From contig OY744466.1 in the NCBI GenBank assembly GCA_963556145.1, positions 62,001 through 126,000 of the forward strand: a stretch of DNA of 64,000 nt, written 5' to 3'. The position numbers and the translations under genes are program-made. Shown here one piece after another: positions 9,541 through 52,592 of the stretch. Source of the DNA: Hygrocybe punicea (Eukaryota; Basidiomycota; Agaricomycetes; Agaricales; Hygrophoraceae). The notes under the pieces were generated by a model. The model saw nothing but the letters and a program-made list of their open reading frames with translations. It had not been told where the DNA came from and ran no database searches. Position 1 is the first letter of the stretch. Each line of letters opens with the position of its first letter.

Positions 9541-10916
9541 TGAAACCCATCTCAAATTTTGCAAATCAAAGGAAGCAACAGAAAAGCAAAATTGAGCGGT
9601 CAAAAAATGTAACTCCTGGCTACAATTAAGCCTGGAAACCATCAGAACAATAGCCTCAATATTCATGGCAACAGGCTATGTTTAATTGCACTCCTCCTAT
9701 CAACAATACTCCTATGCTCACCAATTTGCATACAATGCAGCACATGTGCTAGCATCACTAAAGCGAAAAATAAGAGCTATGGCAACATGCCTCATGACCC
9801 CTAGATGTCCTAGAAACAATCAATAAGCATAGCTCTCAAAGAATTCACACACCCTCACAACCAGGGCTGTGCTAGTGGATATCAGAGAACTGCCACAGAA
9901 TACCCCTAAGAACAGCACCAAAAATGCGAAATTCTAGAGCTATAGTAACCATCCAATGCACACAGAACAGCCCAGACAAAGGGGCAGTGATAGCAACAAA
10001 GAGGCAGTGATAGCAACAATATCCAATTACAGCCTCCCCCCTTGTAATATTCCTACTCCTATCCAATAACTGGGTAACAAAGAGCATCAAAAATGCGAAA
10101 TTGTGGGGCTAGAATGCACACAGAACAGCCCAGACAAAGGGGCAATGATAGTAACCAAGAGGTAGTAATAGCAACAATATCCAATTACCACCTTCCCCCC
10201 TTAATGTTTCCACTCCTATCCAATGTCTGTGCAACAAACAGCAACCAAAATCGAAATGAAGCGGCCAGAACACAGTCTGGAAGCAATAGAACCCATATGG
10301 GCATCATTGGACTTGATATGAATCCATGCAACCAACTTTGATAGGGCCTGGTAGCTAATGAGCAGATACTGCTATTGGCCAGCCAAAGTCTTGGTCCCCC
10401 TTCCATTTCTGGAGAGAACCCTGTCTCCCCAGCCTATAAAAGAGCTCAGAAAAGCCTCGTCTAAACAGATCACCACTCACTCTGCTCTACTCCCTGTGGG
10501 AACTGAAGAAGCACCTCTGCAGAAACAAGGACCAGCCACTTGTTTTCCCCTCTTGGGGTGAGTGTTTAAAACTGTTCCTTTGAATCCCCACCCTTTCTGC
10601 AGTACCCCTTGTATTTTTTCTCTGTGTTTCAAAGCTGTAACACTTGGCCCAAGGCCTTGTCAGCTTGGTTCTATGACAGAACCCCCACTACTGATGTGAC
10701 TGTTCCAGTGAACTTATGTAGACTCTCTGTTCACTTTGGGAGAAATATCCCCCAGTCCAGCTGTCTTGAAGCTGTTTCTGAGACCTCCTGGTTCTCACCA
10801 TTTCAATCTAACCTAACGGCTGCCAGCGGAACGAGACGCTTGTGGTAACAGTTGCTTGAGAATCCGACTACAAAGTACTATAGATAGGTTGATTTGTGAG
10901 CCACGCGAGGTGAAGT
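9541..10916. other. Non-coding; direct repeat and TATA-containing region, possible solo LTR
   Basis: A roughly 170-bp direct repeat (about 9915-10085 and 10088-10250) shares AATGCGAAATT, CACACAGAACAGCCCAGACA and CAACAATATCCAATTA. A good TATA box sits at 10435-10440, followed by CT-rich DNA. This resembles the promoter part of an LTR, but I could not define TG..CA ends with a target duplication. No plus-strand gene follows, so it is either a solo LTR or an orphan promoter. Confidence 0.3.
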
Positions 10917-11401
10917 CTACCTAATACTCACATCCATTTTATTCCTCCTGACAGTTAAACACGACGGGCAGATAAAAGCCTTCTTCTCGTTCACCGTGGA
11001 ACCCAGGATGCAACCAGTTTGCTGGTTTCCTTTCGATACGCACACACCGTCTCCACAGACGGTGCAGTATTTCAGCTGTCCGTAGTCGCGGCACATGCTG
11101 CAGTACTGATGCTGGTCATAATAGATCGATGTCAGTTGACGTAACGCCTAGCCTTGGTAACCCGTACCTCGTGTGGACCGTACCGAGGTCCTTCAATTAG
11201 AAGTTGCGGCTCACTCGCAACTTCCTCTACAACTTGAGTAGTCGAGGGGCCATCATCAGCTGGGATCACTGGACCGACCGTTCCTACAGCACTTAGACCG
11301 TGGAGTTTACTCAAAGCAGTCAGCTTAACCTGGAGGGCGTTGAGCTGGGCTTTGGAGCTGCCTCCTTTGGACTTCTTCGCGTTTTGTTGAGTCCTTGCCA
11401 T
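10917..11401 (-). CDS. Histone H3-tail-mimic zinc-finger protein
   Basis: The product starts MARTQQNAKKSKGG, which matches the histone H3 N-terminus at A1, R2, T3, Q5, A7, K9, S10, G12 and G13, with R8 changed to K and K4 to Q. I chose the ATG at 11401 because the preceding in-frame codons translate a short tandem DNA repeat (about 11425-11465) that looks like 5'UTR. A 57-nt GT-AG intron is predicted at 11112-11168 region (donor GTACGG, branch CTGAC), joining 78 codons to an eight-cysteine exon: CSMC, YCTVC, GVC, TGC and CPSC, a PHD/RING-like spacing. The predicted length is about 140 aa, unless the GTGAGT at about 10931 is a further donor. It lies just downstream of the TET/JBP-like gene on the same strand. 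Seen: the tail match and the cysteines. Inferred: that it competes with or imitates H3 for chromatin readers or modifiers. Confidence 0.65.
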
Positions 11402-11654
11402 CGAAGTAATAGGTTGAGACGTCTGAGTGCGAAATCTCTGAGTACGAAATCTCTGAGTGCGAAATCTCCGATAATGGTTAGTATTAGTAAGCGCTAGGTT
11501 CGAAGGGACACAGCAGTTTTTGCAGAGTTGAGCCAAATAAACCAGCTAAATTGATGGCGAGGGTGTTATCTGTACAAGACGGCACTACACTATGTAATCG
11601 GAGTAAGACATGTATTGAGGTGGATATTAATGTTGCTTGGATGAAAACTCCCTT

Positions 11655-12862
11655 CTACTCTCCCTTTTGCCTGCGTGCAAACCCCTGGCTGAGCATGGGT
11701 TGGTAGTGGCTGATATGTGGGTATGTGGGCCGGTGAGTATCGTATCGCTCGTGGACATCATCCCTCATGAAGTATGCCACGCAAATTCTCTCCCCCCTCG
11801 TCCACCTTTGGACCCTGTGAGACAGAAGTCTTCCAGCAATCAGAACCACCGTTCCTGGATCGTATTTAAGCCTAAGCCCAACATCTGGGACATCCAAGAA
11901 GGCACCACTATGTGTTCCGGCAGATACCAGGGCGTCAAAACATGTGGGCCCTCCACCAGGATCTCGGTGTCGTTTGGTTTCCCGATTGACAATGACGGCC
12001 ATTGCGGAGTATGAGGATGTCCAATGTGAAATATGAGGGTGTTTCGCCTGATCCTGGATTCGGTTCATCGCCTGCATGCCTGCACGTCGCAATTGAGGTG
12101 TCGTGACGGCCAATATGGCTTCTAGCAGTTGGTTAAGAGACTTCATCTTTTGCAAGAATGGTAAAACGGTAGGGTCGATGATGGTTAGGGACGGGTTGCT
12201 CTGGTGTTGGAGGGTCTGCATGAAAAATGCTTTGTTTTAGCCCTTAGTAAGCTCGTAACCTTGGTGTTGACTTTACTGAGTGTGCTTGAGCAAACCACTC
12301 GGGTGACATATCCACCACCCCTGTTTGGAATTCAGCGTTGACGAGAGGCGGGTGAAACGCTGAGGTCCTCCAGGCAATTTTGGCAGTGTGGCCTTGTTGT
12401 TGTTGCCGTGATAATTTGGCCTGGATGTTTGCCATGGCTTTGGTTAATAGTGGTGAGAGAATCTTAATGGCTTCATGGATCTCGGTCTGTGCTGTGGTCA
12501 GAGCGGCCTGAGCACGTTGGTTGAACTCACCTTGAGTTGATCACCCAAAATGTCTGGCAGATACCAGAGGAGAATCCGACCGTATTTGTCCGTGAGGACA
12601 GCAGGCGAGTCTACTTCACCCAACGCTTCTTGTTGATAGAAAGCATTCAGATTTCGGTCCATCGACATCTCATCCCCAGCTTCATTGACTACACCCATCT
12701 TGACTTTATCCGCCCACCTGTCAACATCAAACTGGATGCTAACTAACCGCCCACATGAATGTTATTAATAAGCACACGCCTGGTTGTTGGCCACTCACTG
12801 TTGTTGAGCAGGGCCTGTGCAACAATATTGGTGACCTTGTTGTATTGTTGTTCTGTATTCAT
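11655..12862 (-). CDS. TET/JBP-type 2-oxoglutarate/Fe(II) dioxygenase
   Basis: The last exon (12215-11655) carries the double-stranded beta-helix dioxygenase signature: the HxD iron site in RHRDPGGG, then a PG turn (YDPGTVV), the distal iron-binding His in LLSHRV, and the 2-oxoglutarate-binding Arg in GERICVAYF. This matches the basidiomycete TET/JBP family, which oxidises 5-methylcytosine or thymine in DNA. A 61-nt intron (12216-12276) precedes it; the upstream exon ends AQAHS. Further upstream the frame changes near 12528: either a very short intron or a 1-nt deletion, so the 5' half is uncertain and the gene may be damaged. The start at 12862 is the first plausible ATG. It lies head-to-head with the plus-strand genes beginning at 14.9 kb and tail-side to the H3-mimic gene. 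Fungal TET/JBP genes are known to travel with KDZ transposons. Confidence 0.75.
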
Positions 12863-13158
12863 TGCGTTGGGCAATCTGAGTGACTGGTGGACTAGTTTCT
12901 GTCTGGGGTGGAATTCAAAGCCTAAGCATGTCTGTAGGGTTTTTTAGATGAGGTTAGTTGTATACCTCAACCTGATCCTCTCCACATCAGAGGATTTAGG
13001 TGGTGTCACGCCTGGTTGGTCATAAAAGCTTGTGGCATCCGACAACACATGTGACAGCATGGCAGTCATAAGCGTCTCTGTGGGATCTGTGGCCATGATG
13101 AGGGTAAAAGATAAGGTTACAAGTATTATGTAACCTTGGATTTAGCCTCCGACGAGCT
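12863..13158. other. Upstream region of the dioxygenase gene
   Basis: No gene. Positions about 13021-13135 resemble 14526-14625 (shared GACAGCATGGC(A/G)GTCAT and AAGTATTATGTAA), a diverged direct repeat on either side of the small element at 13159-14176. Confidence 0.5.
13151..13158. repeat. Left 8-bp target-site duplication (GACGAGCT)
   Basis: Identical to 14177-14184 and directly adjacent to the terminal inverted repeats. Confidence 0.85.
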
Positions 13159-14176
13159 AGGACCCATGAATATAAGTGGCAATGCCTCCGCGGAATCCGG
13201 ACCAAAATCGTGAAAAAAGGTACCCTATGCCTGATTTTTTCCGGACCAAAAGTCCCAAATTCTGAAAAATGCCACATTATTTATCCGGCCAAATTTTCGT
13301 AAGAGTGTCAAGGTCTCATCCATTTCCTAAGCCAAATTTTCGTAAGAGGTCTCATCCATTTCCGGACCAGTTTTGCATCCCATGTGATTTTCTGGCACAA
13401 CTCCGCCTGTCTTTCTTTCATGTCAAGTCAGAAATGTCGATCTAAGTAGGGAGTGCAATGCTACCAGTTTACATGTTGAAAGTTACCCCAGTCCCTCTAA
13501 CGAGCTCTCTAACGTTGCTAGCATCTATTGTGAGATGGACACAATCCACGACGACTTGGCTGCAGACCTATGGCAGAGCTCTGACTGGATCTGTAACAAT
13601 AAGAAGTACCCCACCAACAACACTCCCTCTTTCATTCTGGCAGCATGCGCTGAAGTCCTGGAAATACCTACGTCACACACAGGACTCATTCCATATCCAA
13701 GACTCTCTGTCACCGAGTTATTAAAATTGATTATTCCCAGCCAATCCTCTGCATAGATACGGCTGTTACCTGGATCTCACAGTCTGCAGCTCTGAGTACT
13801 GATCAGCGCCACCTCGAGCTTGATGATTCTTTCTCAATTTTCACAAGATACAAGAAATACATACCACAGCTCCTAGCAGCCGTCAAGCATCTTCAAGTCT
13901 TGCGTAGAAATCCAAGGTCTAGGAAGGGGGAATTGACTGAAAAAGAAGCGGACATGGAGGTACTATCCAGCGACGAACTAGCTTAGAGTATGTGCCTACG
14001 CAGCAATCCGGACTTTTTTTATATTTTGGAAGGCCTCCGCCAGAGTCCGGCCCCAAATCTGAAAATTGGTCGCATGCCTGAGTTTATCCGGACCTTTTCG
14101 AGCAAATTTGAATTTTTTTTGCCGGACCTAAAGGGGGTCTGCTGCGGAGGCATTGTGACTTATATTCATGGGTCCT
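13159..14176. mobile_element. 1018-bp non-autonomous TIR element with 8-bp TSD
   Basis: Terminal inverted repeats at 13159-13191 and 14144-14176 match at 31 of 33 positions and begin AGGACCCATGAATATAAGT. They are flanked by an exact GACGAGCT duplication. Subterminal regions contain repeated (T)CCGGACC and GCCTCCGC words in both orientations. An 8-bp duplication fits hAT-like or KDZ/Zisupton-like elements; the TIR start does not decide which. There is no transposase, only a short coding remnant. Confidence 0.85.
13535..13986 (+). pseudogene. Coding remnant inside the small TIR element
   Basis: Two coding-like stretches in different frames: one from 13535 (DDLAADLWQSSDW..) to about 13690, and one from about 13711 to the TAG at 13984-13986 (..SFSIFTRYKKYIPQLL.. 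to DELA). They may be joined by an intron or separated by a frameshift. I do not recognise the protein. It may be a captured gene fragment or a decayed element protein. Confidence 0.45.
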
Positions 14177-14184
14177 GACGAGCT
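14177..14184. repeat. Right 8-bp target-site duplication (GACGAGCT)
   Basis: Identical to 13151-13158. Confidence 0.85.
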
Positions 14185-14347
14185 CCCTTCTAAAACCTAA
14201 CCCCCACTGATCTTCACCTTCACCTGACTGAAACTATCATAGTGTGCTCCCAAAACAATGTCCAGCCAGATTAGTGGTGCTTTAGGGGCAGGGAAGCATA
14301 TCAGGAGAGCCATGGCATGGTTGGGGAATGTATGGAAGTCTTAGCCT

Positions 14348-14540
14348 CCGTTTGTATTTTACATCCAGCTCATATATCACTGGAATGGTAGATATCTGAC
14401 GTCTGATCGGTGCGATGGACATTATTATGATATTACAACAAATTGCAAGAGAGTTGAATATGGTTAATCCCACCAGACCAATCCAGACCATAAAGTTTAG
14501 GATTCTAACTGGGTTACCACAAGTGCATTTAAAAGCTAGT
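14348..14540. repeat. Upstream repeat shared with 16380-16575, copy 1
   Basis: Collinear with 16380-16575: GTTTGTATTTTAC, CACTGGAATGGTAG, GACATTATTATGATATT, GCAAGAG(A)GTTGAAT, CCCACCAGACC and AAAGTTTAGGATTCTAACTGG all recur in order. It lies upstream of the 431-aa gene as the other copy lies upstream of the next gene. Confidence 0.85.
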
Positions 14541-14898
14541 GCCGTCCAACAACACCTGTGACAGCATGGCGGTCATGAGCGTCTTATGATAAGGGTTATA
14601 AGTATTATGTAAACTGAATCTAAGCAAAAATTTAATAGATTCCTTGTGTTGGTCACTATCGCTGAATTGAACTTACTTAAATATGCCTCCAGTGGCCCAG
14701 GCCCAGCCCTTATCGACTAACTGTCATGCCATCAAGTTCTAATCTAACACCACAAAGCATTGACACGGCAGTGAGCTCACGCAGTCGACCTGCCAGTCGG
14801 TCAGCCAACACATCGAGTCTCACCGAAGCTGCAGATTCAACTCACCAACTTCCAGAATAGCGAAAAGTCGCAGTATTTACGACACATGGTGTGTTGCC
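14541..14898. other. Intergenic; possible extra 5' exon
   Basis: An ATG at 14727 opens a 44-codon Ser/Arg-rich frame that stops at the TAG near 14860. It could be an upstream exon or an upstream ORF of the gene that follows, but I found no good splice pair. Confidence 0.35.
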
Positions 14899-16305
14899 AT
14901 GATGGTGGAAGAGCAACCAAGCGCCATGGATGTGACTGAGGTTGGCGATGCAAGATTACGCTCTGCCTTGCAAGCCATGGGGTCAAGGCGGCCAGAGCTA
15001 ACCAAGTGGGCTGTACGTCCAAGTTCCATTACATTCAACGGGTCAAAGGAATATAGCCACCTTGATTTTTCAGGCGAGGCGTTTTCATAATGATGTAAAT
15101 TCCGTGCGGCATGGCTGGCTAGAGGACCCAGAGCTCACGCAAGTGTCACTCGTGAATGTTGGCCGTGAGTGTGTCAACTTTGGATCCTGTTGGGAGTCCT
15201 TGGTCAGGGGTTGGACTGCTGCCAAAGCTATGTCGGATACTGAAAGTGAACCAACCTGGAGGGCTGAGGTGTGGCAGATGGTGTTCATGGCAGCCAACAT
15301 GTCTGATCGCAAATCGGCTGATTGGGTCAATGAGTGAGTGATGCTAGCAGGTGAACTCACCCGGATCGTGACCGTCATGACAGCACTGAACAAATGAAGC
15401 TCCCAAACGGTGTTTTCGGCCTAGGAACCGAGAATTTCCCCCCGTCACTTCGAGGTGCTTACCAACAGCCTGACTTTGTGTTTCGAGAAAATCTGTCAAC
15501 ACAAGACCCTGCAGAGAAAGAACTACTATCACGTCCAGAGGCGACAGTGGGCACACAAAGGGCCTTCTTTGCAGTTCTATTGGCAGAGGGCAAACCGGCA
15601 CAGGGTAAATGGGTTGGATTTGCTAAGCGGCAGGGAAGCATGGGTGCAGCTGCCTGCTGCTATCATCTTATATCTTTGGGTTCAAGCAATCCTTGGGTTG
15701 TGTTCGCCGGTATGAATGGTAGCAAGGTGAGATGGTATGCCATGAATGGGACCGATGTTGGTGGGGGGAATTGGAAGTTGACATATCGACTATTGGAAAA
15801 TATGGACCTCGACTTGAGGAGGTTTGGGGATTGCCTGTCTGTGTTCGCTCTGGGTGAAGCCATGAGGGTTAGCGGGGATGACGCCCTAGACAACTTCAAA
15901 GACAGATTGAAGTCTGCCCTTGCTAGAGAATCTGGGATCGCTCGATGGTGGTTAGATGACCCAAGGAGTACTGGGTTATCTGGGAGTCAATCGCATGGGG
16001 GCAGCGCAGCAGGTGCCGGCCAAGGGGAACAATCCAAAAAACGGAGAAGGCAAGACCCAGACACAACGTCCCAGACCACGACCACGTCATCCCAAAGTAG
16101 CACGCACACACAAACTGGCTCTCAAGGCTTAGCATCTGGCAAGCGCCAGGCTATATTGGAGTGGCTAGGCTCTGGGACGGACATGGGAGAGACGGTTAGA
16201 ACCGGTGTTACTGCCGAACCCAAGCTTGCAGCACCTGAGTCACTGCCTAAGGGCCGATGGGGCAGCGGGTTCAAATGGCTGCATTCTATACTGCGACGGT
16301 TTTAA
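14899..16305 (+). CDS. Unknown 431-aa protein (element gene 1)
   Basis: Three exons join cleanly: 14899-15012, 15074-15333 and 15384-16305, with introns of 61 and 50 nt (donors GTACGT and GTGAGT, both ending in CAG) and preserved frame. The first two thirds look globular and Trp-rich (for example WESLVRGW, WRAEVWQMVF, WVVFAGM, VRWYAMNGTDVGGGNW). About residue 315 onward is Ser/Thr/Gln-rich with a basic KKRRR cluster that could be a nuclear signal. I do not recognise the family. It is the first of four same-strand genes and is head-to-head with the dioxygenase gene. The ATG was chosen because it is the first in frame with exon 2. Confidence 0.6.
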
Positions 16306-16379
16306 AAATACTATAACCCTTCTCAAACCCATACAACAACTTCCAGTTGTTGTATGACCTTTATATGTTGACTTCTTGT

Positions 16380-16575
16380 CTGTTTGTATTTTACACACTG
16401 GAATGGTAGTTGTTATATGACATCTCATCCATGTGATGAACATTATTATGATATTGTATTATACTTCATTGTCATGCTGTTACTTTTGCAAGAGTTGAAT
16501 GTGGATGATCCCACCAGACCTAACCAGAACTTAAAGTTTAGGATTCTAACTGGGAAACCGAAGGTGCATTCACAA
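16380..16575. repeat. Upstream repeat shared with 14348-14540, copy 2
   Basis: Sits between element genes 1 and 2, directly before the start of gene 2. See 14348-14540 for the shared words. A duplicated promoter-proximal segment is one explanation. Confidence 0.85.
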
Positions 16576-16593
16576 TCTTGAACTTTGCGTCAC

Positions 16594-19500
16594 ATGACAA
16601 ATACCCCTCTTATGCGCTCTCACCAACAATTCCTTCTGAAATGGCCTCGGTCAGTGCCTAGAAAGGCTGAATGTGATGCTGCCCTCAGGTTCCGCGAGGG
16701 CAATGGCATTCTCAAACCAACATCTGCTTCTAACTCTATCCCAATTTATGTCACCACCGCTTGGGTTACTGAAACCGGTAGAATGTCGGACAAGTCATCC
16801 ACTGCGCTTCCTGGACATTACCGGCGTTTCTGGGATCAGCTAAACTTTATTATCATTTATTATCAAGAGGCTTATAGGTGGCTCAGCCAATGGCTTGAAG
16901 ACAAATCCCGAGGTTATCAGCTGTTACGCAAGGCAGTAGAAACTCACGTCAAATGGATCGTCTATTCTACCAAAGTTCAAGACTTAGTCAAACAGGTACT
17001 AAAGGACGAGGCAGTGACAACTTGGACTGGTGAAACACGTATACCTATTTTTGATGAGTGGATTGTAAAGGACCAGTGGGATTTGCATCGCGCCACTAAA
17101 AAGGCACTGGTGTCTTCAACAAGCTTGAATCATTTCAAGTTGGATCCATTCAAGGATGGAAAAGAATTTGGCAAGTGACGTTTGACTTGTCAAAATAATT
17201 CCTAACCAATGTGGCAGATTATAAGAACGTATTTCCGGAGATGTTGGCTCCCTCCAACCCAGCTGAGAACTTTAACTGCGCACGATTGGGCATTCAGCAC
17301 TTTGACTTCGATAAATATATGATGGGCCTATTAACAGATATCGGGATTATACCCAAGGGGTTAGGAGGACCATCTAAATCTACGGTTGAAACCCATCATG
17401 AAATGATTGGTCAAGATGTTCTCTGTGATGCTGGCTCACTTGTGGTTAAAGAGAATCTCTCGTGCCTGGTATGCTATAAACCATTACATTTAGGTGTTTT
17501 CCATGAATGATTTTGCTCAGGCCCTGTTAGAGTCAGCTTGTCCTGATTTAGGCTTCAGAGGTGACGGTGAAGGCTTAAACAGCCAGGTCAAATTGGTCTC
17601 ATCTTATCTTCCTCACCATCCTAACTCGATTTCAACCAGGGGTCCACCTTACACCAACAAGTCAATCATAATGGCAATCAGCCTAACCAAAACATTTCTC
17701 AGTCACCGGTATGACCTCCAAGTTTGGTTTGGGTGGTTATGTTTTTAATGATGTATCCTCTGACAGTCAGACTTGTCATCAGAGAACCCACTTAATATAC
17801 AGGACCACAGTGATTATTGGCCAGGATCATCTCAACAGACAGATTGCTGTGAAAATCTAGTCAGCTCAGTCAGTTTTTTCTTTCTGGGGTTCAATCCCTT
17901 CGTAACCAATTATGCCAACAGAATGCCAACCCCGATCAGAGTATATCTGCTGGTCAGTGTGACAGATTCTCTAACCTAATGTATTGTTCTCTCATCAAGC
18001 ATGTGTAGTTTCACCTTTATCACCGGTTCAACCTAAACCCCAATCTAAACCCAAGACATCATCTGGAACATTAATTCCTCACATAGATCTTAGAGAGAAG
18101 ATGAGAGGAAGGACAAATACAATTTTTAAGAAAACAGATTTGTATGTGACATTTGCATTCAAGTCGATGGGGTTATTTAACTTCATTTCAAGAATCATTA
18201 TTCCCAACCCAGGCACCGCCATTATTAACACACTACCCAGAATTCAAGATAATATTCTGGTAAGTAGTTTGAATTTTGTACATCACACTCAAGGCAAGTC
18301 TTATGAGAAATAGTATCATAGTTCCGATGGGGATTCCGCGGTTCATTGCAATTCTGAGATGATTGATGCCACCAATTGCACAGATTCTTTGAACTGGTAT
18401 GTTGAACAATTAGTAATGCTTCCTTATCCTCATTGGTCGTTACAGTCTGGACTCACCATTGACCGAGCTTGAAATAGTCATTCATAATTCTGCGACGTCG
18501 GCAGATGATTATGATTTGTAAGCTTGGCTATTGTGTTGAAGCTTCCTCTTGCATAATGCAATTTTTGCAGTGATGAGCCTAATAACCCTAACCAACCAAA
18601 TGATGACTTGGAAGATTTGTGGTCATACGATGATGATCGTAACCCTTTAAGGTAAGTTTACATGCAGAATTTGGACTCTGGTGTGCTTACTTGTGTTGTT
18701 TGCTTTTTATGATTTTATCAGTAAGGATTATTTGGTCAAAGGGCCAATTTCAGGTGTTATAAATACATTTCACATATGGGATAACTAATCTAAATATGTC
18801 TTGCTGGGCTGAATCCAGATGTTGCAGAAAGGTTGGAGGTCGAGGTAACCAGCCAGAGGATGGTGTATGAAGACAGGTATGTGGATCTTTGATCGCTCTT
18901 AAACTAATTCCAAAACATGCCTCAGGACTCCTCCGTATGTGCCTCAAGATTTATCAGAGTGTGTTATATTTTTCACTTGGAGCATAAACATTTCATCATT
19001 GGTTTGGTCTGTAATTTCAGGGATTCCTCACCAGCCGTTGCAGTGGGGAGGGTTAGTGCATCTTCCTCGGAAGAAGAAACTTTAATGGCCAGTTTTCAAA
19101 GAAAAGAAGCTCATGTGGTGTCTTCCTCTGATGAGGAAGATACCTTGTTTGCCAAGTGGAAGAAACAGCACAAATCTGCCCCAATCGGAACCCCTAAATC
19201 TGGTGGGAAGAAGAAGACTTACACCTTGAAAACTGCCATCGTAGTCAGTCCCAGGAAGGGAGATCGCGCTAAATCTGCTGGAATTGACACGAGCAAAACA
19301 TCCACCCATCAACAACAAGAAGCTTCAATTGTTTTCCTGGATGGTTTGGCCCATTCATTGGAAAGATTGGCAAACTTGACTAAAGATAATGGATCTCGTG
19401 GTGTAAGCCCTCATTTGTTCAATTCCTCTTGTGAATTATTTTTATCAGGTTGGATTGTTTCTAGAAGACAATGGATGAGTTACTGTCATTTTTTGAGACT

Positions 19501-19750
19501 TGGAATGCATTGTGGGCTAGCCATGAACGCGACTGTTTGGATAAAATCAAGTCCATCAGGGCTGATTCCAAAACAAAGGTAATGAATCTTCTTTTCATCT
19601 GCATCACTGCTGAAACTCCTTGGATAGAAATCCGTCGGCAAAGCCTTTTTGAAGAAAATAGTGCCTTGGTTGAAGGAACATGGTAATGATGATCAGAAAT
19701 TGATGCAAGGGGTAATCTCTATGGCCTTGGCATTTACAGGCAACATGTAG
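16594..19750 (+). CDS. Many-exon unknown protein (element gene 2)
   Basis: At least twelve short introns can be traced. The first appears to be GC-AG (donor GCAAGT at 17171, acceptor before 17218), since a GT donor there gives a stop. The N-terminal 190 residues are Trp/Tyr/Lys-rich. The middle exons are Ser/Pro/Gln/Asn-rich and probably disordered. The exon from 19021 is acidic then basic (SSSEEET.., SSDEEDT.., KSGGKKK). The C-terminal exons (about 19470-19750) look helical, possibly coiled coil, and end ..GNM at the TAG 19748-19750. No family recognised. The tandem-duplication breakpoint (18603) falls inside one of its exons, so the second copy lacks the 5' half. Confidence 0.55.
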
Positions 19751-20225
19751 ATAATGGTTAGACCTGGATATGTGTTAGAATCGTATTGTTTGCTCTCATA
19801 TATACTCAGGCTTGGATGTTGCTAGCTTATATTTTCTGGCAACTAAACTCAGACTGGGTTTGGTCGGGTTTTTTTCTAATAGTGTTCTGACCACTTTTAC
19901 TCACCACATCGCTGCATGACTATAATCTTACCACAAAGGAAGAGGTTAAGCTAAAAAGCTAAAAAGCCAGCTAACTCCCAAAACCCTAACTTGAAATGTA
20001 ACTGGATTGCTGCATGACTGGCCATAATACAAGTAAGACACATATCCCCATAAGCTAACCAAAGACCAGCTAACTCCCAAAATCCTAACCAACCTGGCAA
20101 TTGTTTGCTCACATGATTTCGTTTGGCTGACTAACCCAGCTCACTCTCACTCTCTTCACCTCATGTCAGCTCTATGCGGTTTTGGTATTTGACGCTCATC
20201 TGATGCAACTCTCCATGATTATTAG
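19751..20225. other. Intergenic between element genes 2 and 3
   Basis: No gene. Contains two diverged copies of a roughly 95-bp segment (about 19912-20000 and 20008-20095), each starting GCTGCATGACT and ending CCAGCTAACTCCCAAAA(C/T)CCTAAC. Confidence 0.6.
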
Positions 20226-21471
20226 ATGGCTTCATCCCGGAACTTGATCAGACAAGAACTCAAACCCAATAATTCCAAGTTTGGAAAATTGGCCACCTAC
20301 GAGTCTCTGAAAAGTAGGTTGATTGTCTGAACTTACCTGGGCATTGACCCTTGGACTTTCTTTGTCTATAGTCATGGGTAACTCGGAGGATGGTTTGGTG
20401 GAATTCTTTCGTGGGGACCAGTAAGGTCTTGCTTTTGCTTCTTCCTCATCTAACCTCTCTTTGCGGTTAGTGTCATGGTTGTCCCTCATGAAGAAGACTT
20501 GGGTGAATTGGATAATGATGGTTTTTTGGCCAACCCCGATAATTATTATCATGCAACCATTGTGGACATTCGAGGAAACTTGGACAAATCAGGATCGGTC
20601 TGTTTTCATTCTCTAAAACTTTCAACTGTCCAATCTTGGAGTAGATTTGGATCAAGATAAGTTGGTTTTATACTGCGGACCATATTAGGTCTGTCTTCCC
20701 CACAGAGAGTGCTCATCTGTGAGTGGTTATTGCATTGTACCCTTCTCAAATAGTGCTTCATGGGTAGCAGGCCATTGGACAAAATGGGTTCAAATGAGTT
20801 GGTGGCTTCCAATCACGAGGACATTATTGATGCTGCTTGTATTGAATGTAAGTCTTTGACTTCTCTCAAACATCAACCAGCAAGTTGAGCTTGTCGGACA
20901 GCGCCCTCTTCCTTGCTACACTTCGATGACACTTTGTGTCTACATTCCGACATCCCAACTGATTCCTATTATTCACGTTGGACTCTCAACGTCAAATCCA
21001 TGACATTCACAGTGCGGTTAAATCATCTTCTCCTGATATTTCTGTGCTGATTTGACTTATTTTCAGAAGCTCAAAATGTCCTGTGTCATAGGCTGTCATG
21101 GTTTGTATGCGCCAGAAAGTGACATTCAGCGTTGGTGTTCCACTTGTCAGACATGGTTTCACACAGAGTGTATGGAGGTCCAACAGGAGGAACCTACATT
21201 CGAAATAACAGGCCTAAAATCTCCGCCTGCCGGTGTTGATGAAGATCTCCTAACCATTGCAATTAAACCAATAGAGCGGGGACTTCTTTCAATTCATGGG
21301 TTGGTTGGCAATGGCGAACAGCAATTGTTTTCCAGATGGTTGTTATCCGAGGCCAATAAAGGGGAGAAGAACTGTTCTCTGCAAAATCTCAGCAAAAAGT
21401 ATGTGAGGAGAGTTATGGGTGATAATCCTGTGTATTATGAATGTCCTTATTGCACACGTAGTTGGATTTAG
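20226..21471 (+). CDS. BAH-PHD chromatin-reader-like protein (element gene 3)
   Basis: Seven exons with introns of 47-80 nt give a protein of roughly 330 aa. The middle part has BAH landmarks in order: a basic/acidic VMVVPHEED segment, YYHATIVDIRG, then ISWFYTADHI, and NELVASNHEDIIDAACIE, as in BAH domains that bind chromatin proteins or modified histones. The C-terminal exon has a PHD-like pattern: CVIGC, WCSTC, FHTEC and a final YECPYC. It is followed 86 bp later by the Ulp1-type gene on the same strand. A diverged homologue with the same domain order lies at 50812-52062. Inferred role: recognising histone H3 state at target or donor chromatin. Exon borders between the BAH and PHD parts are by eye. 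Confidence 0.7.
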
Positions 21472-21556
21472 TCATTTCCCTGCTCACCTTACGTGATGCC
21501 TCGTGTAGGTTGCGGGTTGTGCCTGTATTACATATTGTATCTTGCTTTCCGTCATC

Positions 21557-24500
21557 ATGTCTGACTCTTCGACTTCATCGGATTCCAAATTTTCTGATGA
21601 CCTGCTCTCCGTAGCAAAAGAATTTCAAGGAAAGCTGGACTTGATCGCTTCTCGAGTCTCCTCCTCATCATCTTCTTCTGATCCTATGGACTCATTGTCT
21701 GTCAATCCCACATGGAAATCCATCCTGACCTCCTCTCAGGCCTCTCAGTTGACTTCTAAGCAACTGCAATCAGCGTTTGATGTTTTAGCTGGGTTGCCTT
21801 CTCAAAATTTCGCCTCCTCTTCCTCCAATGAATCCACACACTCGGACACTTCCGATGGTTATCAGCCGTCTGGTGACATTGTGCCTTTGCAACTTGAAGA
21901 CTGGAATATCAATCCCTCCACATCTAATGCTGGTGAATCTCAGAATGAACATGGGCCTGATAACAATGATCAGCATGACAAAGGTGGGCTTCAACAATCC
22001 CATAGCTTAGCTTTCAGCCTCATTTATCTTTATCTTTATTTCAAGACCTGATTCTTTGTAATCCTATGGTGTGGAGTGTTCCTCTGTTGGAGATTCAAAC
22101 TTTGTGCATTGGAAAGTGGTTGGATCAAACCATAATCAACTTTTATCTCCTTCACCATTGGCTCCACAACCGAGATGATGCCCTCTTTTACCTGGTGAAC
22201 TTGGAATTGACTCTGAATTCGAGAATTATGCCAAATCAGATGCAATTGGATTCTTATGAATCTTATACTGGTCGACTTCGCCCATTTCCTCCACGTCCTG
22301 TGATCGCAGTTATAGGTCATTCTCATCATTTTTTTGTCGCCATCTTCGATTACACTGCAATGATGGCCTATGTTCTGGGTTCGAGAATCTCTCACTCAGG
22401 TTATTATCATATCGACTTTCCCTGGCATGATTGGAATGGTCCACGGTTGTGGAATTTCTTGGCCGCTCTTCATGGTTGGCAAGCTGGAGACATAAATGAA
22501 GTCGAGGTGGTAGCCAGACAATGGCGTCAGGTCTGTCTTGTGCTCAAAATTCAGTTGATCTTTCTTTACACTTCTCTTTTCAGAATGGATTGGATTGTGG
22601 TCCGATAACTGTCTCGGTGATTTTAGCTCTCTTGTCCAGAGGGTTGGAATTCGATGATTCCGGTCACATTCTCTGTCCCTCCATTCCTTGCGCTCATCTC
22701 CAGAGGCAGCATATGTTTGAGGTTATAGTGGAACAAACATTTATTTGCTTCACCACCTGGAAAGCCATGAAAGAGTCCCATCCCATTGCTTGGGTTACTG
22801 AACCCATCCAAGCTTCCGTGGATATGCTGGAATCTGGTCAAGAATGGCTGACCAAAATCAGCAGAATGTCAAAACAATTTAAGAAGGCCCAATCTCATTG
22901 CCCAGATTGCAAACGAAGTAGAACCATTATGGCGGCCAAGATCAAATCCTCGTCTAACCCACATTCAAGTTCCAATGATAGCCAGAGTGGCAATGAGCCG
23001 GAGAGTGAGGACCAGGAGAGCAGTGAGTAACATTCTTGTGTTTCTGATGAGTATTCCTTTTACCTTGGCACTATCTGCAGGACAACAAAAATTCCCTGCT
23101 CATCTCAAGAATAATACATTCATGAAAGGGGCTCGAAACAGAGCATTCTTGGTGCCTCGTAGGTTGAAAGCCACCGACAACACAATTCCCTTGCCACCCC
23201 AACGTTTCATCCCTCTTCCTTCTAATTCCAATTTTGATGAGTATTTCCTGGGGCCTACCTTGGAAGACAATGCAATGTATCCAAAATATCTTGACAATTT
23301 CCCAACCAATCCTTTTGCCATGCCCACCATCCGTTCATCATGGGAACATTACAAAGACTATGGTTACAGGTTGGAACCCAGTTTCGCCCTCATGTTCAAT
23401 AATGTCGACCCCATCCTCGTCCAAGAACATCTCCTGCCTGTCGGGTCATCACTCACAGGGGAAAGCACCTCCGATCACATCACCGGTGATTATTCTCTGG
23501 CAAGACGTGGTCACGAGGACATCAATGTCGATGTTAACGATATCGTGACTATGGGAATGGAAGACATGTTGTCTCATGCTGGTAGAGAAAACTCCATAGA
23601 GAGTTTCAATGCCTTTGTTTGCGGTCGATCTTCTTATGGCCATTATATCCACCTATCTCTCGAGGAAGACAAAGTTCATTTGGAGGAAGATGAAATAACC
23701 TCGTGTTTCGACATCGATAGCATGATCTGGGTCACTCACAAACTCCATTTTCTTCAAGCCATCAAGATGTTCGTGTTGCCATACGAAAGGAGGGAAGCTC
23801 CTATCCACAGAAACAATCACGTTTATGTGGACATCCTTCTTCCTCGTTCAGAGCTCGACAAGGACAGCGGTGGTCGATCAGAGTGGCTATCCAAGTCATT
23901 TCCTTTGTCTGGAATACCTCACACCCACTTTGCTCATCTTGGAGATGGTGCAGGAAGCGTGAACATATATGTTTTCTTTCCACGGATGATTCACCGGGAC
24001 GAGTTCAGGGGCTTTCGAGTCAACCGGATTCCTTTCGAAGTGCAATCTTTGTGGTTTACAGAGGTCGTCCTCCCTTCCATCATTGCCTCCACAGTTCCTG
24101 GCTGTTTGGAGTACACAGATTTCACTCTGGATGAGTGGAGATGGAAGGCTTCAGTAAATCATAGATTCGTCGACACCAAGACCACTCCTGTTCGTGCTTC
24201 TGCCCTTGATGATTTGCAGTATTGCATGAAGAAAATCATTATGGAAAATCCTGACAATCTCGATCTCTTCGGTTCCTTCTTCTTCGTTTGCGACTTTCGA
24301 AGCTCCAAAAACCTTACCGTGGAGGATGACCCCTATCAAGCTTTGATGAGGGAGTACCCCGGAATGGATTGGGACTATGCTATGGATCGATCCAATGGAC
24401 AGCTCTTCCTCGACTTTGGGATTTCTTTCCATCCAAATCCCAAAGATGCAACCCCTTTGGTCGGTCTTTGGAAGCTGCCCGTTGTGCAAGGTTCATATCA

Positions 24501-26251
24501 AGCCGCTGGGATGAAGCAGAGCACCATCCATAACACCAACACTCTGGCACAGTACGGTGGCATGCAGGCTGAAATGCAACAGGAGAGGATGAAGGCAGTC
24601 CAGTTTACTTTTCGTTCTTCCTATGGCCTGTACTTTGAGGCCATTCGCCGTCCAGGGTCTAACTCCTACTTTTGCGAGGACCGTGAGGCTTACTTTGCCT
24701 CCCCCACTTTCCTCGACTGTTGCAAAAGATATGGTGGCATGTTCAAGGGTGCCAAAAGAAAGTCATTCGGGGTTAGAGAAGAAATTCGTGGAAGTGGACT
24801 GGCCATCAAGACGGCTTTGATGTCCGCAAAAAGAAAGGCTAGTTTGCTGTGTGTCTCTGGTGGTTTTCTTCTACATCTGACTTGCAGTATTTTGTGATCC
24901 AGGCATTGGATTACTTGCGGTCAGATCCCGTGTTGTGGGTTAAATCCGATCTTTGGTTCACCTTTGTGGGAAGGAGAATGTTGGAGCTCAAAAACTTCCA
25001 ACTCAAGTTGTCGAAATCACGTCCCTCCAACTATGGAATCATCACTAGTCTGATCATGCATCTGATCCGGAACATCATCACAGCTATCTTAATGCTGCTC
25101 TCATTGACCTCAATTTCGGTCCCTGCATAGAAAGATTTGGAATGTTCTTTCTGCATGATATAGACATTTCCAACAACATCTTTCTTCCAGGATTGGAGCA
25201 AAACGACGACGATGAGGTGGCCAAGGTGATGAAGCTGGACAAGAGGGCACGCAAAAAGGCTAGGACAATCAATTTCATCAATTCTGAACCAAATGCTCAG
25301 TATCCCATCGGTGACTCGCCTCCCTGGAAGTTGGTGGTTCAAGCTGTTCAAGACTCACCGGAGACGATGTTGAAGGCTTGGGAATGGAGTGCCATGTATG
25401 ACCAGCACGCTCAGGCAAATGACCTATTTATCAGAATGACGGTCGATCTCTGGCTTACCGTGGTGGACGATGCCATGTATGGCCTACCTCCCAAGCCCAC
25501 CACCCTTCAAGAAGCCATGGAATGTTGGACGGTACAAGCCATACAGGCATCTTTTCGTAACTGCACGTTCTTGGCTTCAAGCTACAATCTTCGAGGGGCA
25601 AAGACCGGACAAAAACACTCTTCGTTTCGCTCGATGCTCTCCATCTTTTTCCCCGCTCCCGATGCTGGTTTCAATGCCAACTCTGTTTGGCAGCCATTGA
25701 TGGATAAGGGTTATATTGGGGAATATCATCATCTGTGCAAGACACTTTCCGAGCGTCGGCTCCTGGAGATTAACACGGGGCTTAGCATCATCTTTGCTCA
25801 CCTTCAGTGTCTTCCTGTCAGCAAACGATGCCAGGAAGGTGGAAGAAGATGTGGAACGATATGGAAGACACGCAATGGTTACATCGAGCTGGTCACCAAC
25901 TCAAGATACTACAAGCTGGCCAGGATTGGGAATGTCACCAGAGAGAAGAAACCGGTGAGAACGAGGGTAAAGGCATCCACAGCTGTGATAGCTGCGAAAT
26001 TGGATCAAGAGCATCGCGGAATCCCATACAAAGTAAGCAGACGTGAATACAGGGATCGTCAAAAGTCCTGGAAGAAGGCAAATTTCCGCAAGCCTCCAGC
26101 AAGAAGACAAGAGGTCCAATCTGAGGAGAGCAGTGTCAGTGAAAGCAACGGTGATTCCACTGATGACAGCGACGATGGTGGCAGTGGGAGTTCAGAGATT
26201 GAGAAGAGTGGTGATACATGTTCAGAGAATGATGAGACAGGTGAAGAGTAG
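21557..26251 (+). CDS. Giant Ulp1-type cysteine-protease fusion protein (element gene 4)
   Basis: Exon 1 (21557-21983) is Ser-rich. The next exons (22046-22530, 22584-23022) form a Ulp1/C48-like protease: KWLDQTIINFYL, a His in SHHFFVAIFD, WNGPRLWNF, and the Cys in QNGLDCGP split by an intron. The position where Ulp1 enzymes have Asp reads VLGS here. A 58-nt intron then joins it in frame to a long exon (23081 to about 24855) with conserved CFDIDSMIWVT, HNHVYVDILLP and GDGAGSVNIYVFFPR. Two or more introns at about 24.86-25.03 kb lead to the last exon, ending in an acidic Ser-rich tail. The predicted length is about 1400 aa. Ulp1-type enzymes remove SUMO-like tags and occur in many eukaryotic transposons; the large C-terminal part is unknown to me. 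A homologue at 47859-50567 shows the same fusion, supporting one gene rather than two. Confidence 0.7.
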
Positions 26252-26289
26252 TAGTGTCTAGACATTGAGCAGCATGAAAATACTTGTCC

Positions 26290-27501
26290 TAGAGGCTATT
26301 GAACCATTAGATATCAATGGAATCATCTCCAAGACGGTTTTATGAATGTATTGAGTTACCCCCTGTTATAGCACAGGTTCTTGGCCAGCTAGGAACCTCA
26401 AATCACTTGACCTAGGGGTTATTTCACCATGGGTTCTCAATGGAGTCATCTCCGGGTCCATTTTGTGCATGCATTCTTGAGATATATGAATGTGCTCCTC
26501 CTACCCCCTGACAGAGCACATGCTCTGGGCCAGCTAGCAACCCGAGATCACTTGTCCAGGGGGCTAGTTGATCATCAGATTTCATTGAAATGATCTCCCG
26601 GATACTTTGGTGAATGCATTCTTGAGATACACCAATGTGCTCCTCATACCCCCTAGCATAGCACATGCTCCTGGCCAGCTAGTGACCTAAAATCCCATGT
26701 CCAGGGGGTAAGTTGATCCCCAGATCGCAATGGAATCATCTCCCAGACCATTTTATGAATGCATTCTTGAGATATAGGAATGTGCTCCTCCTACCCCCCT
26801 GGCATAGCACAGGTTCCTGGAGAGCTAGCAGCCTCAAATCACTTGTTCTGGGGGCTATTTGATCACCACATTCCATTGAAACAATCTCCCGGACACTTTG
26901 GTGAATGCATTCTTGAGATATACCCATGTGCTCCTCATACCCCCCTGACATAACACATGTTCCTGGCCAGCTAGCAACCCCAAATGACTTGTCCTGGGGG
27001 TTATTTGATCACCACATTCCATTGAAATGATCTCCCACACCCTTTTATGAATGCATTCTTGAGATACAGCAATGTGCTCCTCATACCCCCCTGGCATAGC
27101 ACAGGTTGCTGGCCAGCTAGCAACCTCAAATCACTTGTTCTAGGGGATATTTTATCATGGGAGTTCAATGGAGTCATCTCCCAGACCCTTTTATGAATGC
27201 ATTCTTGAGATATGCCCATGTGCTCCTCATACCCCCCTTGTACAGCACATGTTCCTGGCCAGCTAGGAATCTGAAATCACTTGTTCTGGGGGTTATTTAA
27301 CCATGGGATTGCAATGGAGTCATCTCCCGGACCCCTTTATGAATTCATTCTTGAGATATGCCCATGTGCTCCTCATACCCCCCTTGTATAGCACGTGTTC
27401 CAGGGCAGCTAGTAACCTCAAATCACTTGTTCTGGGGGCTATTTGATCACCACATTCCATTGAAATGATCTCCCGGACCATTTTGTGAATGCATTCTTGA
27501 G
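26290..27501. repeat. 146-bp minisatellite after gene 4 (copy A)
   Basis: GCATTCTTGAGATA recurs at 26471, 26616, 26761, 26907, 27053, 27199, 27345 and 27491, giving a period of 145-146 bp. Each unit also holds TGTGCTCCTCATACCCCC, GCACA(G/T)GTTCCTGGCCAGCTAG, CAAATCACTTGTTC and a CATTGAAATGATCTCCCGG-type block. Open frames through it are by-products of the repeat. Confidence 0.9.
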
Positions 27502-27701
27502 NNNNNNNNNNNNNNNNNNNNNNNNNNNNNNNNNNNNNNNNNNNNNNNNNNNNNNNNNNNNNNNNNNNNNNNNNNNNNNNNNNNNNNNNNNNNNNNNNNN
27601 NNNNNNNNNNNNNNNNNNNNNNNNNNNNNNNNNNNNNNNNNNNNNNNNNNNNNNNNNNNNNNNNNNNNNNNNNNNNNNNNNNNNNNNNNNNNNNNNNNNN
27701 N
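27502..27701. other. Assembly gap (200 N)
   Basis: Exactly 200 N, a conventional placeholder size. Sequence after the gap repeats sequence before it, so no real DNA need be missing. Confidence 0.98.
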
Positions 27702-28508
27702 AAATCCCATGTCCAGGGGGTAAGTTGATCCCCAGATCGCAATGGAATCATCTCCAGACCATTTTATGAATGCATTCTTGAGATATAGGAATGTGCTCCT
27801 CCTACCCCCCTGGCATAGCACAGGTTCCTGGAGAGCTAGCAGCCTCAAATCACTTGTCTGGGGGCTATTTGATCACCACATTCCATTGAAACAATCTCCC
27901 GGACACTTTGGTGAATGCATTCTTGAGATATACCATGTGCTCCTCATACCCCCCTGACATAACACATGTTCCTGGCCAGCTAGCAACCCCAAATGACTTG
28001 TCCTGGGGTTATTTGATCACCACATCCATTGAAATGATCTCCCACACCCTTTTATGAATGCATTCTTGAGATACAGCAATGTGCTCCTCATACCCCCCTG
28101 GCATAGCACAGGTTGCTGGCCAGCTAGCAACCTCAAATCACTTGTTCTAGGGGATATTTTATCATGGGAGTTCAATGGAGTCATCTCCCAGACCCTTTTA
28201 TGAATGCATTCTTGAGATATGCCCATGTGCTCCTCATACCCCCCTTGTACAGCACATGTTCCTGGCCAGCTAGGAATCTGAAATCACTTGTTCTGGGGGT
28301 TATTTAACCATGGGATTGCAATGGAGTCATCTCCCGGACCCCTTTATGAATTCATTCTTGAGATATGCCCATGTGCTCCTCATACCCCCCTTGTATAGCA
28401 CGTGTTCCAGGGCAGCTAGTAACCTCAAATCACTTGTTCTGGGGGCTATTTGATCACCACATTCCATTGAAATGATCTCCCGGACCATTTTGTGAATGCA
28501 TTCTTGAG
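27702..28508. repeat. Rerun of 26690-27501, probably unmerged contig overlap
   Basis: 807 bp matching the 812 bp before the gap, with only five single-base losses (for example CTCCCAGACC to CTCCAGACC, and GTTCTGGGGG to GTCTGGGGG). Errors of this type fit lower-quality contig ends. Confidence 0.85.
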
Positions 28509-28692
28509 ATATGCCGATGTGCTCCTCATACCACCTTCTACCCCTTGTTTGTGCCATAGCTCCAAAACCGGTCCGCCAATGTTGTTCAAAATTTGCACAG
28601 GACATCTCATGGGTTATATGATGACTCTAAACCATCCCACCAAGTCAGATTTTGGTGCAAATTTTCCAATGCATTGCTACCAGGCATATATA
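28509..28692 (+). mobile_element. Right terminus of the large element, copy A
   Basis: Unique sequence after the minisatellite: GCTCCAAAACCGGTCCGCCA, then an 11-bp inverted repeat (28588-28598 and 28655-28665, AAAATTTGCAC / GTGCAAATTTT), a palindrome CAATGCATTG, and the end CAGGCATATATA at 28681-28692. The same end occurs at 37775 and 47858, each time joined to different DNA, so it is a true element border. Confidence 0.85.
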
Positions 28693-29840
28693 ATGACTTG
28701 GAAGATTTGTGGTCATACGATGATGATCGTAACCCTTTAAGGTAAGTTTACATGCAGAATTTGGACTCTGGTGTGCTTACTTGTGTTGTTTGCTTTTTAT
28801 GATTTTATCAGTAAGGATTATTTGGTCAAAGGGCCAATTTCAGGTGTTATAAATACATTTCACATATGGGATAACTAATCTAAATATGTCTTGCTGGGCT
28901 GAATCCAGATGTTGCAGAAAGGTTGGAGGTCGAGGTAACCAGCCAGAGGATGGTGTATGAAGACAGGTATGTGGATCTTTGATCGCTCTTAAACTAATTC
29001 CAAAACATGCCTCAGGACTCCTCCGTATGTGCCTCAAGATTTATCAGAGTGTGTTATATTTTTCACTTGGAGCATAAACATTTCATCATTGGTTTGGTCT
29101 GTAATTTCAGGGATTCCTCACCAGCCGTTGCAGTGGGGAGGGTTAGTGCATCTTCCTCGGAAGAAGAAACTTTAATGGCCAGTTTTCAAAGAAAAGAAGC
29201 TCATGTGGTGTCTTCCTCTGATGAGGAAGATACCTTGTTTGCCAAGTGGAAGAAACAGCACAAATCTGCCCCAATCGGAACCCCTAAATCTGGTGGGAAG
29301 AAGAAGACTTACACCTTGAAAACTGCCATCGTAGTCAGTCCCAGGAAGGGAGATCGCGCTAAATCTGCTGGAATTGACACGAGCAAAACATCCACCCATC
29401 AACAACAAGAAGCTTCAATTGTTTTCCTGGATGGTTTGGCCCATTCATTGGAAAGATTGGCAAACTTGACTAAAGATAATGGATCTCGTGGTGTAAGCCC
29501 TCATTTGTTCAATTCCTCTTGTGAATTATTTTTATCAGGTTGGATTGTTTCTAGAAGACAATGGATGAGTTACTGTCATTTTTTGAGACTTGGAATGCAT
29601 TGTGGGCTAGCCATGAACGCGACTGTTTGGATAAAATCAAGTCCATCAGGGCTGATTCCAAAACAAAGGTAATGAATCTTCTTTTCATCTGCATCACTGC
29701 TGAAACTCCTTGGATAGAAATCCGTCGGCAAAGCCTTTTTGAAGAAAATAGTGCCTTGGTTGAAGGAACATGGTAATGATGATCAGAAATTGATGCAAGG
29801 GGTAATCTCTATGGCCTTGGCATTTACAGGCAACATGTAG
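28693..29840 (+). pseudogene. 5'-truncated copy of element gene 2
   Basis: Carries only the exons downstream of the breakpoint, from the codons for DLEDLWSYDDD onward. It lacks the 16594-18602 part, including the start codon and the Trp-rich N-terminal region. It would need a new promoter and start to be expressed. If the tandem copy is an assembly artefact, this entry does not exist in the genome. Confidence 0.75.
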
Positions 29841-30315
29841 ATAATGGTTAGACCTGGATATGTGTTAGAATCGTATTGTTTGCTCTCATATATACTCAGG
29901 CCTGGATGTTGCTAGCTTATATTTTCTGGCAACTAAACTCAGACTGGGTTTGGTCGGGTTTTTTTCTAATAGTGTTCTGACCACTTTTACTCACCACATC
30001 GCTGCATGACTATAATCTTACCACAAAGGAAGAGGTTAAGCTAAAAAGCTAAAAAGCCAGCTAACTCCCAAAACCCTAACTTGAAATGTAACTGGATTGC
30101 TGCATGACTGGCCATAATACAAGTAAGACACATATCCCCATAAGCTAACCAAAGACCAGCTAACTCCCAAAATCCTAACCAACCTGGCAATTGTTTGCTC
30201 ACATGATTTCGTTTGGCTGACTAACCCAGCTCACTCTCACTCTCTTCACCTCATGTCAGCTCTATGCGGTTTTGGTATTTGACGCTCATCTGATGCAACT
30301 CTCCATGATTATTAG

Positions 30316-31561: not shown

Positions 31562-31646
31562 TCATTTCCCTGCTCACCTTACGTGATGCCTCGTGTAGGT
31601 TGCGGGTTGTGCCTGTATTACATATTGTATCTTGCTTTCCGTCATC

Positions 31647-36341: not shown

Positions 36342-36379
36342 TAGTGTCTAGACATTGAGCAGCATGAAAATACTTGTCC

Positions 36380-52575: not shown

Positions 52576-52592
52576 TACATAGAAGACCGGTA

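Follow-up and report, generated by a model that had tools for sequence, protein, structure and literature searches.

Giant mobile elements with chromatin-related genes in probable subtelomeric chains of the mushroom Hygrocybe punicea

The Terminons and Athena elements of bdelloid rotifers are giant units with extra open reading frames (ORFs) and a 3′ telomere-type sequence, and their 5′-truncated copies form head-to-tail chains at chromosome ends (excerpts of PMC6431247 and PMC5537684). In Drosophila, HeT-A, TART and TAHRE are chained in one direction, their 3′ ends facing the centromere, and HeT-A lacks the enzymes needed (PMC5537684, in part). MoTeR of Magnaporthe and GilT/GilM of Giardia are telomere-linked retroelements with truncated copies (excerpts of PMC8381367 and PMC5537684). 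Described here is a 64,000-nucleotide stretch of the Hygrocybe punicea genome (the window; C8:62001-126000, contig OY744466.1), of which the region at 5–54 kb is read as a subtelomeric chain made up of several families of large mobile elements. This reading, taken jointly with the mechanism of terminal addition proposed below, is given a probability of about 60%. A single genome was searched (G000; 92 Mb in 42 contigs, which are cited here by C numbers).

By analogy, the layout is that of telomere-attaching retroelement chains such as HeT-A and Terminons. As in the partial accounts of Terminons and Athena, the units are giant, have extra ORFs and lie in 5′-truncated, same-direction, head-to-tail chains near chromosome ends; a 3′ end that resembles the telomere repeat is present here in family 2 only. 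Unlike Terminons, as far as the excerpts describe them, the Hygrocybe elements show no Penelope-type reverse transcriptase (RT) in the sequences scanned, family 1 ends in TATATAA, there is chromatin cargo, and the host is a fungus. The one-way chains, the inward-pointing fixed end and the lack of a copying enzyme of their own among the genes seen here are features shared with HeT-A as it is outlined in that source. Unlike HeT-A, TART and TAHRE, no poly(A) end is seen here, and telomerase-type repeats are present at four of the 22 contig ends looked at. Linkage to chromosome ends and truncated copies are also found in MoTeR and GilT/GilM, in so far as the excerpts go. MoTeRs insert in telomere repeats, and we know of no chromatin cargo in MoTeR, GilT or GilM.

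The members of the chain in the window are:

5155..9539, + strand: 3′ part of a family-4 element, right end ...AACAGTATATATAATGA at 9539
10374..10816, + strand: 3′ piece (at least this far) of a family-2 element, right end ...CAATCTAACCTAA(C), telomere-repeat-like
10816..28693, + strand: family-1 element, copy 1, 5′-truncated at 10816, exact right end at 28693
28690..37777, + strand: family-1 element, copy 2, 5′-truncated, starting at the equivalent of 18600, same right end
45744..47859, + strand: family-1 element, copy 3, heavily truncated, same right end
47776..52597, + strand: part of a family-3a element, right end ...GACCGGTATAATG at 52597
52595..53003, + strand: piece of the 609-bp subtelomeric satellite
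53346..54437, + strand: second family-4 right end in the window

The right terminus of family 1 provides evidence for mobility. It is found in the window at 28693 (...GGCATATATAA), 37777 and 47859, and altogether 18 family-1 right ends (the three in the window, 14 in loci fetched on eight other contigs and a second one in L061, one of those loci) have the terminus TTGCTACCAGGCATATATAA in common and differ by one substitution at most within their last 14 bases. These 18 ends run on into 18 different sequences. One exact terminus at many unrelated sites supports mobility, and one mobile terminus is thereby established. Families 1, 3a, 4 and 5 share a TATATAA/TATAATG terminus; family 2 and the satellite are without the motif. 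The family-4 end at 9539 recurs at 54437, at C36:386711 and on C7 and C39, and stretches of 5155-8652 and 8836-9538 align to C36:381140-386711. Family-2 ends were seen seven times, family-4 ends five times and family-3a ends three times, and the ends of family 5 and the satellite rest on few joints (two and three, respectively).

The left side of family 1 is variable, and the genes carried by copy 1 are needed to describe it. These and the related family-3a frames are:

10816..11401, − strand: H3-tail-mimic zinc-finger gene, cut at 10816
11658..12236, − strand: TET/JBP dioxygenase gene, catalytic exon, with more exons to about 13100 (by eye)
13159..14177, no strand assigned: dispersed element of ~1 kb, terminal inverted repeats ~33 bp long, located between TET and gene 1
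15355..16302, + strand: gene 1, a 316-aa open frame, no known domain
16582..18600 (end approximate), + strand: gene 2, a 198-aa open frame and further exons, no known domain
20226..21468, + strand: gene 3, putative BAH-PHD protein
21557..26248, + strand: gene 4, giant protein, with putative Ulp1-type motif exons at 22046-22530 and 22584-23022
23081-24852, + strand: gene 4 exon with the conserved domain, predicted fold faintly Rep-like
from 24888, + strand: last exon of gene 4, out of frame in the window
26359..28532, + strand: 146-bp minisatellite near the right end, split by a 200-N gap at 27502-27701
47776-50259, − strand: family-3a gene-4 relative
51652-52059, + strand: family-3a PHD-like ORF

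The first exon of the H3-mimic gene is present at four places (C8, C6, C36:402k and C1), and each of them carries TET, gene 1, gene 3 and gene 4 as well. Gene spacings in these four long copies are equal to within about 45 bp, and the right flanks differ. The minus-strand pair, i.e. the H3 mimic and TET, travels together with genes 1–4, as the initial annotation had supposed, and in this genome the pair does lie adjacent to them. Left edges differ, being at 10816 on C8, at the equivalent of 10922 on C1 and at 386711 on C36; the C6 copy continues, and both the C6 and C36 copies extend further left than that of the window. Other family-1 copies begin at many internal points. Differing left edges and the many internal starts are the result of 5′ truncation, and 10816 is no element end. 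The initial annotation had put forward a possible giant element at 10917-28692 that ends in a sharp terminus. This right terminus is borne out, exact at 28693 and found 18 times in all; the left boundary is a truncation that differs from copy to copy, and a single element of 10.9-28.7 kb with two sharp ends was rejected for this reason. Genes 3 and 4 are also found in many copies that lack the left pair, for the most part owing to 5′ truncation of the copy.

A candidate for a fixed left end, ACGTGGTCGTTGG, was found at only four places (two each on C6 and C36), beside a repeated minisatellite, and was not accepted. The left part of the C36 copy has a Ty3-type long terminal repeat (LTR) element with RNase H and protease matches (about 390-399.7 kb; L047:3-4882), which is absent from the C6 copy and is regarded as a later insertion. 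Matches to integrase and RNase H (L046, L047) were rejected as element genes, since they come from LTR elements within or next to the C1 and C36 copies.

Chains are evident from the joints. Eleven of 19 family-1 left sides directly abut the right end of another element or of the satellite in the same orientation. The neighbour is family 2 in one case (window 10816), family 1 at window 28690 and C36:6.053M, family 4 at C36:386.7k and on C7, family 5 on C1 and at C36:6.058M, family 3a at C36:766k and C40:5.72M, and the 609-bp satellite on C33 and at C36:781.7k (the latter within 4 bases). The C39 left side is about 190 bp from a family-2 end, which itself follows a family-4 end; the other seven are without an assigned neighbour (C8 copy 3, C6, C40:27k, C2:8.557M, C41:4.981M, C41:4.784M and C2:8.48M). 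At nine joints the two partners share 1, 3, 5, 2, 1, 3, 3, 2 and 4 nucleotides, with a mean of 2.7. Random breakpoints are expected to give 0.34 shared nucleotides, and none of 100,000 simulations reached the observed sum; with a stricter two-sided null (mean 0.67) a single simulation in 100,000 did.

It should be pointed out that the window has a head-to-tail duplication of its own, in which 18600-28690 is followed by 28690-37777 at 99.98% identity (window self-comparison). The 200-N assembly gap at 27502-27701 is in the first of the two units, and the duplication may therefore be partly an assembly artefact. The chain argument stands independently of it. No identity switch at 18600 that would signal a false duplication was seen, and differences are patchy (17.8-19.3 kb is not comparable, and the N gap remains).

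The elements are concentrated near contig ends. By positions entered by hand and a threshold picked afterwards, 24 of 34 copies of families 1–3 lie within 120 kb of a contig end, a zone that makes up 3.4% of the 13 large contigs. The fixed right end points inward, away from the nearer contig end, in 30 of the 34. Fourteen contig ends have copies; 12 are purely inward, two mixed and none purely outward. The count of 34 includes C6:277k, which is not among the 19 left sides. Not part of the 34 are family-2 copies on the small contigs C20, C21 and C27, other subfamilies (among them C36:760k and C34:6.748M), short fragments, and six degenerate family-1 copies (C1:9.44M, C1:0.99M, C3:0.19M, C34:6.66M, C8:0.42M and C6:0.91M).

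Irregular telomere repeats, (CTAACCTAA)n, are found at the start of C2, the ends of C6 and C7 and the start of C34. The family-2 right end, CAATCTAACCTAAC, resembles the telomere repeat, and the ends of families 1, 3a, 4 and 5 do not; the joint at C2:60.6 kb reads CTAACCTAACCTAACC. At the C34 start and the C7 end the telomere repeat runs directly into the 609-bp satellite, which is also a partner in chain joints.

Three further observations concern the contig ends. The telomere repeat mixes CTAAC and CTAACC units (TTAG/TTAGG) and is not plain TTAGGG. An 80-bp satellite (CTTTAAATTGTTGAAAA...) is present at the start of C6 and the ends of C1, C3, C8, C40 and C41, where telomere repeats might be expected. 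The interior arrays of these elements at C36:757-876 kb and C36:380-419 kb may be what is left of old chromosome ends, or may come from mis-joined contigs.

We propose that an eroded chromosome end gains a new element. The 3′ end of the element would pair by a few bases with an exposed chromosomal 3′ overhang and be copied outward, and its left end would become the new terminus, erode and later gain another element or telomere repeats. The template would probably be an unspliced transcript, since the genes keep their introns. A candidate for the copying enzyme is an RT supplied in trans, either telomerase-like or Penelope-like. As a description of the locus, several families of giant elements, joined in terminal chains and in some cases with anti-silencing cargo, fit better than a free-standing giant transposon. 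Of the giant mobile element with a chromatin toolkit that was first suggested, what survives is the toolkit and its presence on mobile DNA; the boundaries and the picture of a free-standing transposon do not.

Several points weigh against terminal addition. Among the family-1 copies examined, no complete left end or second fixed end was found. Twelve joints were tried; two of them could not be scored, because their references disagree close to the joint, and for a third there was no reference. Most of the nine measured joints have a single reference for the element end. The six degenerate copies, added by hand, lower the inward count to 32 of 40, and some of the short fragments point outward. 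Copies are also found 0.2-0.9 Mb inside C36, C39, C8, C6 and C41. Exchange between chromosome ends keeps orientation, and the copies are therefore not independent. No RT was detected in 26 window ORFs or in the scanned C6 ORFs, shorter exons being outside the scan; the one exception among the scanned element ORFs is the Ty3-type LTR element of the C36 copy. A genome-wide RVT_1 search, with 150 of 594 candidates scored, identified no trans-acting RT. No hammerhead ribozyme was found in 15 loci, where the model RF00163 was silent on controls as well.

A DNA element driven by a Rep-type protein is the strongest of the other explanations, and we consider it unlikely. The conserved domain of gene 4 would be a divergent nuclease of the rolling-circle type; it would cut at the fixed right end and pass a single strand, copied only in part, to a chromosome end or the end of an existing element, which gives one fixed and one variable end with no RT. 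Gene 4 is present in all three families with known genes. Its conserved domain is well modelled, and the predicted fold faintly resembles rolling-circle (Rep_trans) initiators; a Foldseek comparison with viral models gave nothing significant. Of the folds that had been considered for gene 4 at the outset, the rolling-circle one has this faint likeness, and the 26 window ORFs given to Pfam have no match to a DDE transposase or tyrosine recombinase.

It is improbable that the chains arose from break-induced replication and subtelomeric exchange alone, with elements that have no mobility of their own. Generic end repair would take random donor positions, but at 18 sites it is one exact family-1 terminus that is used, and the terminus of each of the other repeats likewise recurs, at no fewer than two joints. 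Some contribution of this kind is nevertheless suggested by the four long copies on C8, C6, C36 and C1, whose left halves are mostly 99-100% identical and whose right halves are patchy, a pattern that fits copying from homologous right halves; in addition, the C1 and C2 end regions align in part to the same query stretches. Part of the spread may therefore be break-induced copying, and for the left pair such copying and movement of the element itself are inseparable here. No target-site duplication, which in KDZ transposons is 7-8 bp long, was seen by eye in the flanks of the C1 copy. Very improbable is a 5′-truncating element that inserts preferentially just after the TATATAA(TG) of a resident right end, the downstream element being the newer one: it accounts for joints at right ends and for the motif common to families 1, 3a, 4 and 5, but predicts neither the inward orientation (30 of 34) nor the joints at family 2 and the satellite, which are without the motif.

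The genes of family 1 largely agree with what the initial annotation had read from the window. The H3-tail-mimic protein, with its start codon at 11401 (−), has the N-terminus MARTQQNAKKSKGG, which is secure as a pattern. In the mimics, 9 of the 13 positions that follow the Met agree with H3, and the next best of 15,120 ATG-started 14-mers, taken from all fetched DNA with overlapping loci, matches at 5 of 13. A complete model on C6 has six exons and 491 aa; the window copy is broken off shortly after its second exon. A paralogue that has diverged is found at C33:134710-135387 (−), next to gene-2-like, TET and gene-1-like sequences; its first residues are MARTTQNTKKSTGG. Between the mimic and this paralogue, the first 14 codons comprise five identical, six synonymous and three amino-acid-changing ones, and the linker that follows is diverged. 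A third, broken relative at C40:5.616M retains TKQNVKKST. By the numbering of the histone, the two intact forms retain K9-S10 and G12-G13 and have another residue in place of K4. Taken together, the sequences suggest selection on imitation of H3, which is evidence of selection and not of effect. No homologues of the complete mimic protein were found at E 0.001 among 8,000 candidates scored. The zinc-finger part of the C33 paralogue (L026:1243-1920, minus strand) has a weak match to the FORGETTER1 zinc ribbon (E 0.0057, below cut-off).

The TET/JBP dioxygenase is well supported. Its catalytic exon matches Pfam Tet_JBP with 63 bits (E 2.6e-17), the best PDB match is CcTet (E 4e-16), and the HxD and distal His of the 2OG-Fe oxygenase core are kept. 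Family 2 also has a TET gene, about 14 kb upstream of gene 4, at four of seven places. By eye it is closer to dispersed TET (L001) than to family-1 TET, and TET was therefore probably acquired at least twice. Genome-wide there are 122 TET matches at E 0.001, mostly outside these elements. Genes 1 and 2 have no known domain, Pfam being silent on both, and the C6 and C36 copies have an additional gene-2-like ORF further left.

For genes 3 and 4 the earlier reading is upheld in part. Gene 3 matches BAH (E 0.0012) and, after it, PHD (E 0.0056), both below Pfam cut-offs. Gene 4 carries RQNGLDCG and the conserved motifs HFF, QNGxDCG and WxxAxVxNFYL, which we take to be Ulp1 motifs. No Ulp1 match was found in Pfam or PDB profile searches, and gene 4 is a putative Ulp1-type protein on the basis of these motifs and the UniRef name of one homologue. 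In the window it has a 19-bp deletion relative to C6, which breaks the frame of the last exon. A protein search gave 57 relatives, none with a precomputed Pfam domain, and the family may therefore be widespread and unrecognised. The named relatives include ones from Suillus, Boletus, Pisolithus, Rhizopogon, Lyophyllum, Lentinula and Tulasnella, and all those with a name are from Agaricomycetes. The linkage of genes 3 and 4 in a second family at 47.9-52.6 kb holds for gene 4, whose family-3a relative at 47776-50259 (−) has a listed identity of 39%, and is weak for gene 3 (PHD, E 0.085).

That no KDZ transposase is visible was also found in the present work: the 26 window ORFs, which include all nine of 150 or more aa at 10.8-28.7 kb, have no Pfam match to a KDZ or DDE transposase, a tyrosine recombinase or a helicase. 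Rfam and tRNA scans gave nothing of use. TET-bearing DNA transposons of fungi are described by Kojima (2025; PMC12730594, in part): in Agaricomycetes, TET/JBP is carried by mobile DNA and has passed from one transposon lineage to another, and Kyakuja elements have CA..TG termini with target-site duplications of 7 bp. That paper has no mention of Ulp1 or PHD, and ‘telomere’ occurs there in the references only. Unlike the KDZ elements (Kyakuja, Dileera and Zisupton), the Hygrocybe elements have no transposase in the ORFs scanned, the family-1 right end is TATATAA(A) with no CA..TG as in Kyakuja, and left ends are variable. They also differ from Helitrons, which have a RepHel protein with a helicase and a CTRR 3′ end, as no helicase is present in the scanned ORFs and the right end is TATATAA. 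Cryptons with a C48 peptidase are mobile elements that carry an Ulp1-type peptidase, and most end in short direct repeats (PMC3212892, in part). The carriage of a protein with Ulp1-type motifs is a likeness to such Cryptons as that source presents them; unlike them, no tyrosine recombinase was found in the scanned ORFs.

The TET/JBP enzyme, the BAH-PHD protein, the protein with Ulp1 motifs and the H3-tail decoy may act to counter host silencing at chromosome ends. A bolder view, which we hold to be rather doubtful, is that these are a class of giant eukaryotic mobile elements that lengthen chromosome ends without RT, with an Ulp1-motif/Rep-like protein acting at the TATATAA(TG) terminus, an anti-silencing kit and a decoy selected to imitate the H3 tail. 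If the terminal chains hold true, element-built chromosome ends, as in flies, rotifers, Giardia and the rice-blast fungus, would extend to giant elements of the mushroom lineage with no visible polymerase. Telomere biology would also be tied to escape from silencing, as a single mobile unit would combine DNA demethylation, SUMO removal, histone reading and histone mimicry. Conservation of the H3 mimic in a diverged paralogue makes mimicry of host chromatin by a mobile element directly testable.

Some minor features are found in and around the elements. A JmjC-like ORF to the left of the C6 copy (L043:1859-2920; C6:9859-10920, minus strand), near the 80-bp satellite, has weak KDM7/KDM2 matches (best E 0.015) and none in Pfam; it is not counted as cargo, because the C36 homology stops short of it. 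RVT_1 matches at C39:5-225 kb are in apparent open frames of up to 23,230 codons, perhaps N-masked stretches. The ~1-kb inverted-repeat element at 13159-14177 is present in all four long copies and was thus inserted before their spread; on either side of it, by eye, is an 8-bp GACGAGCT duplication. Two further minisatellites, with 150-bp and 233-bp units, lie between the chains at 41055-41846 and 42429-43867.

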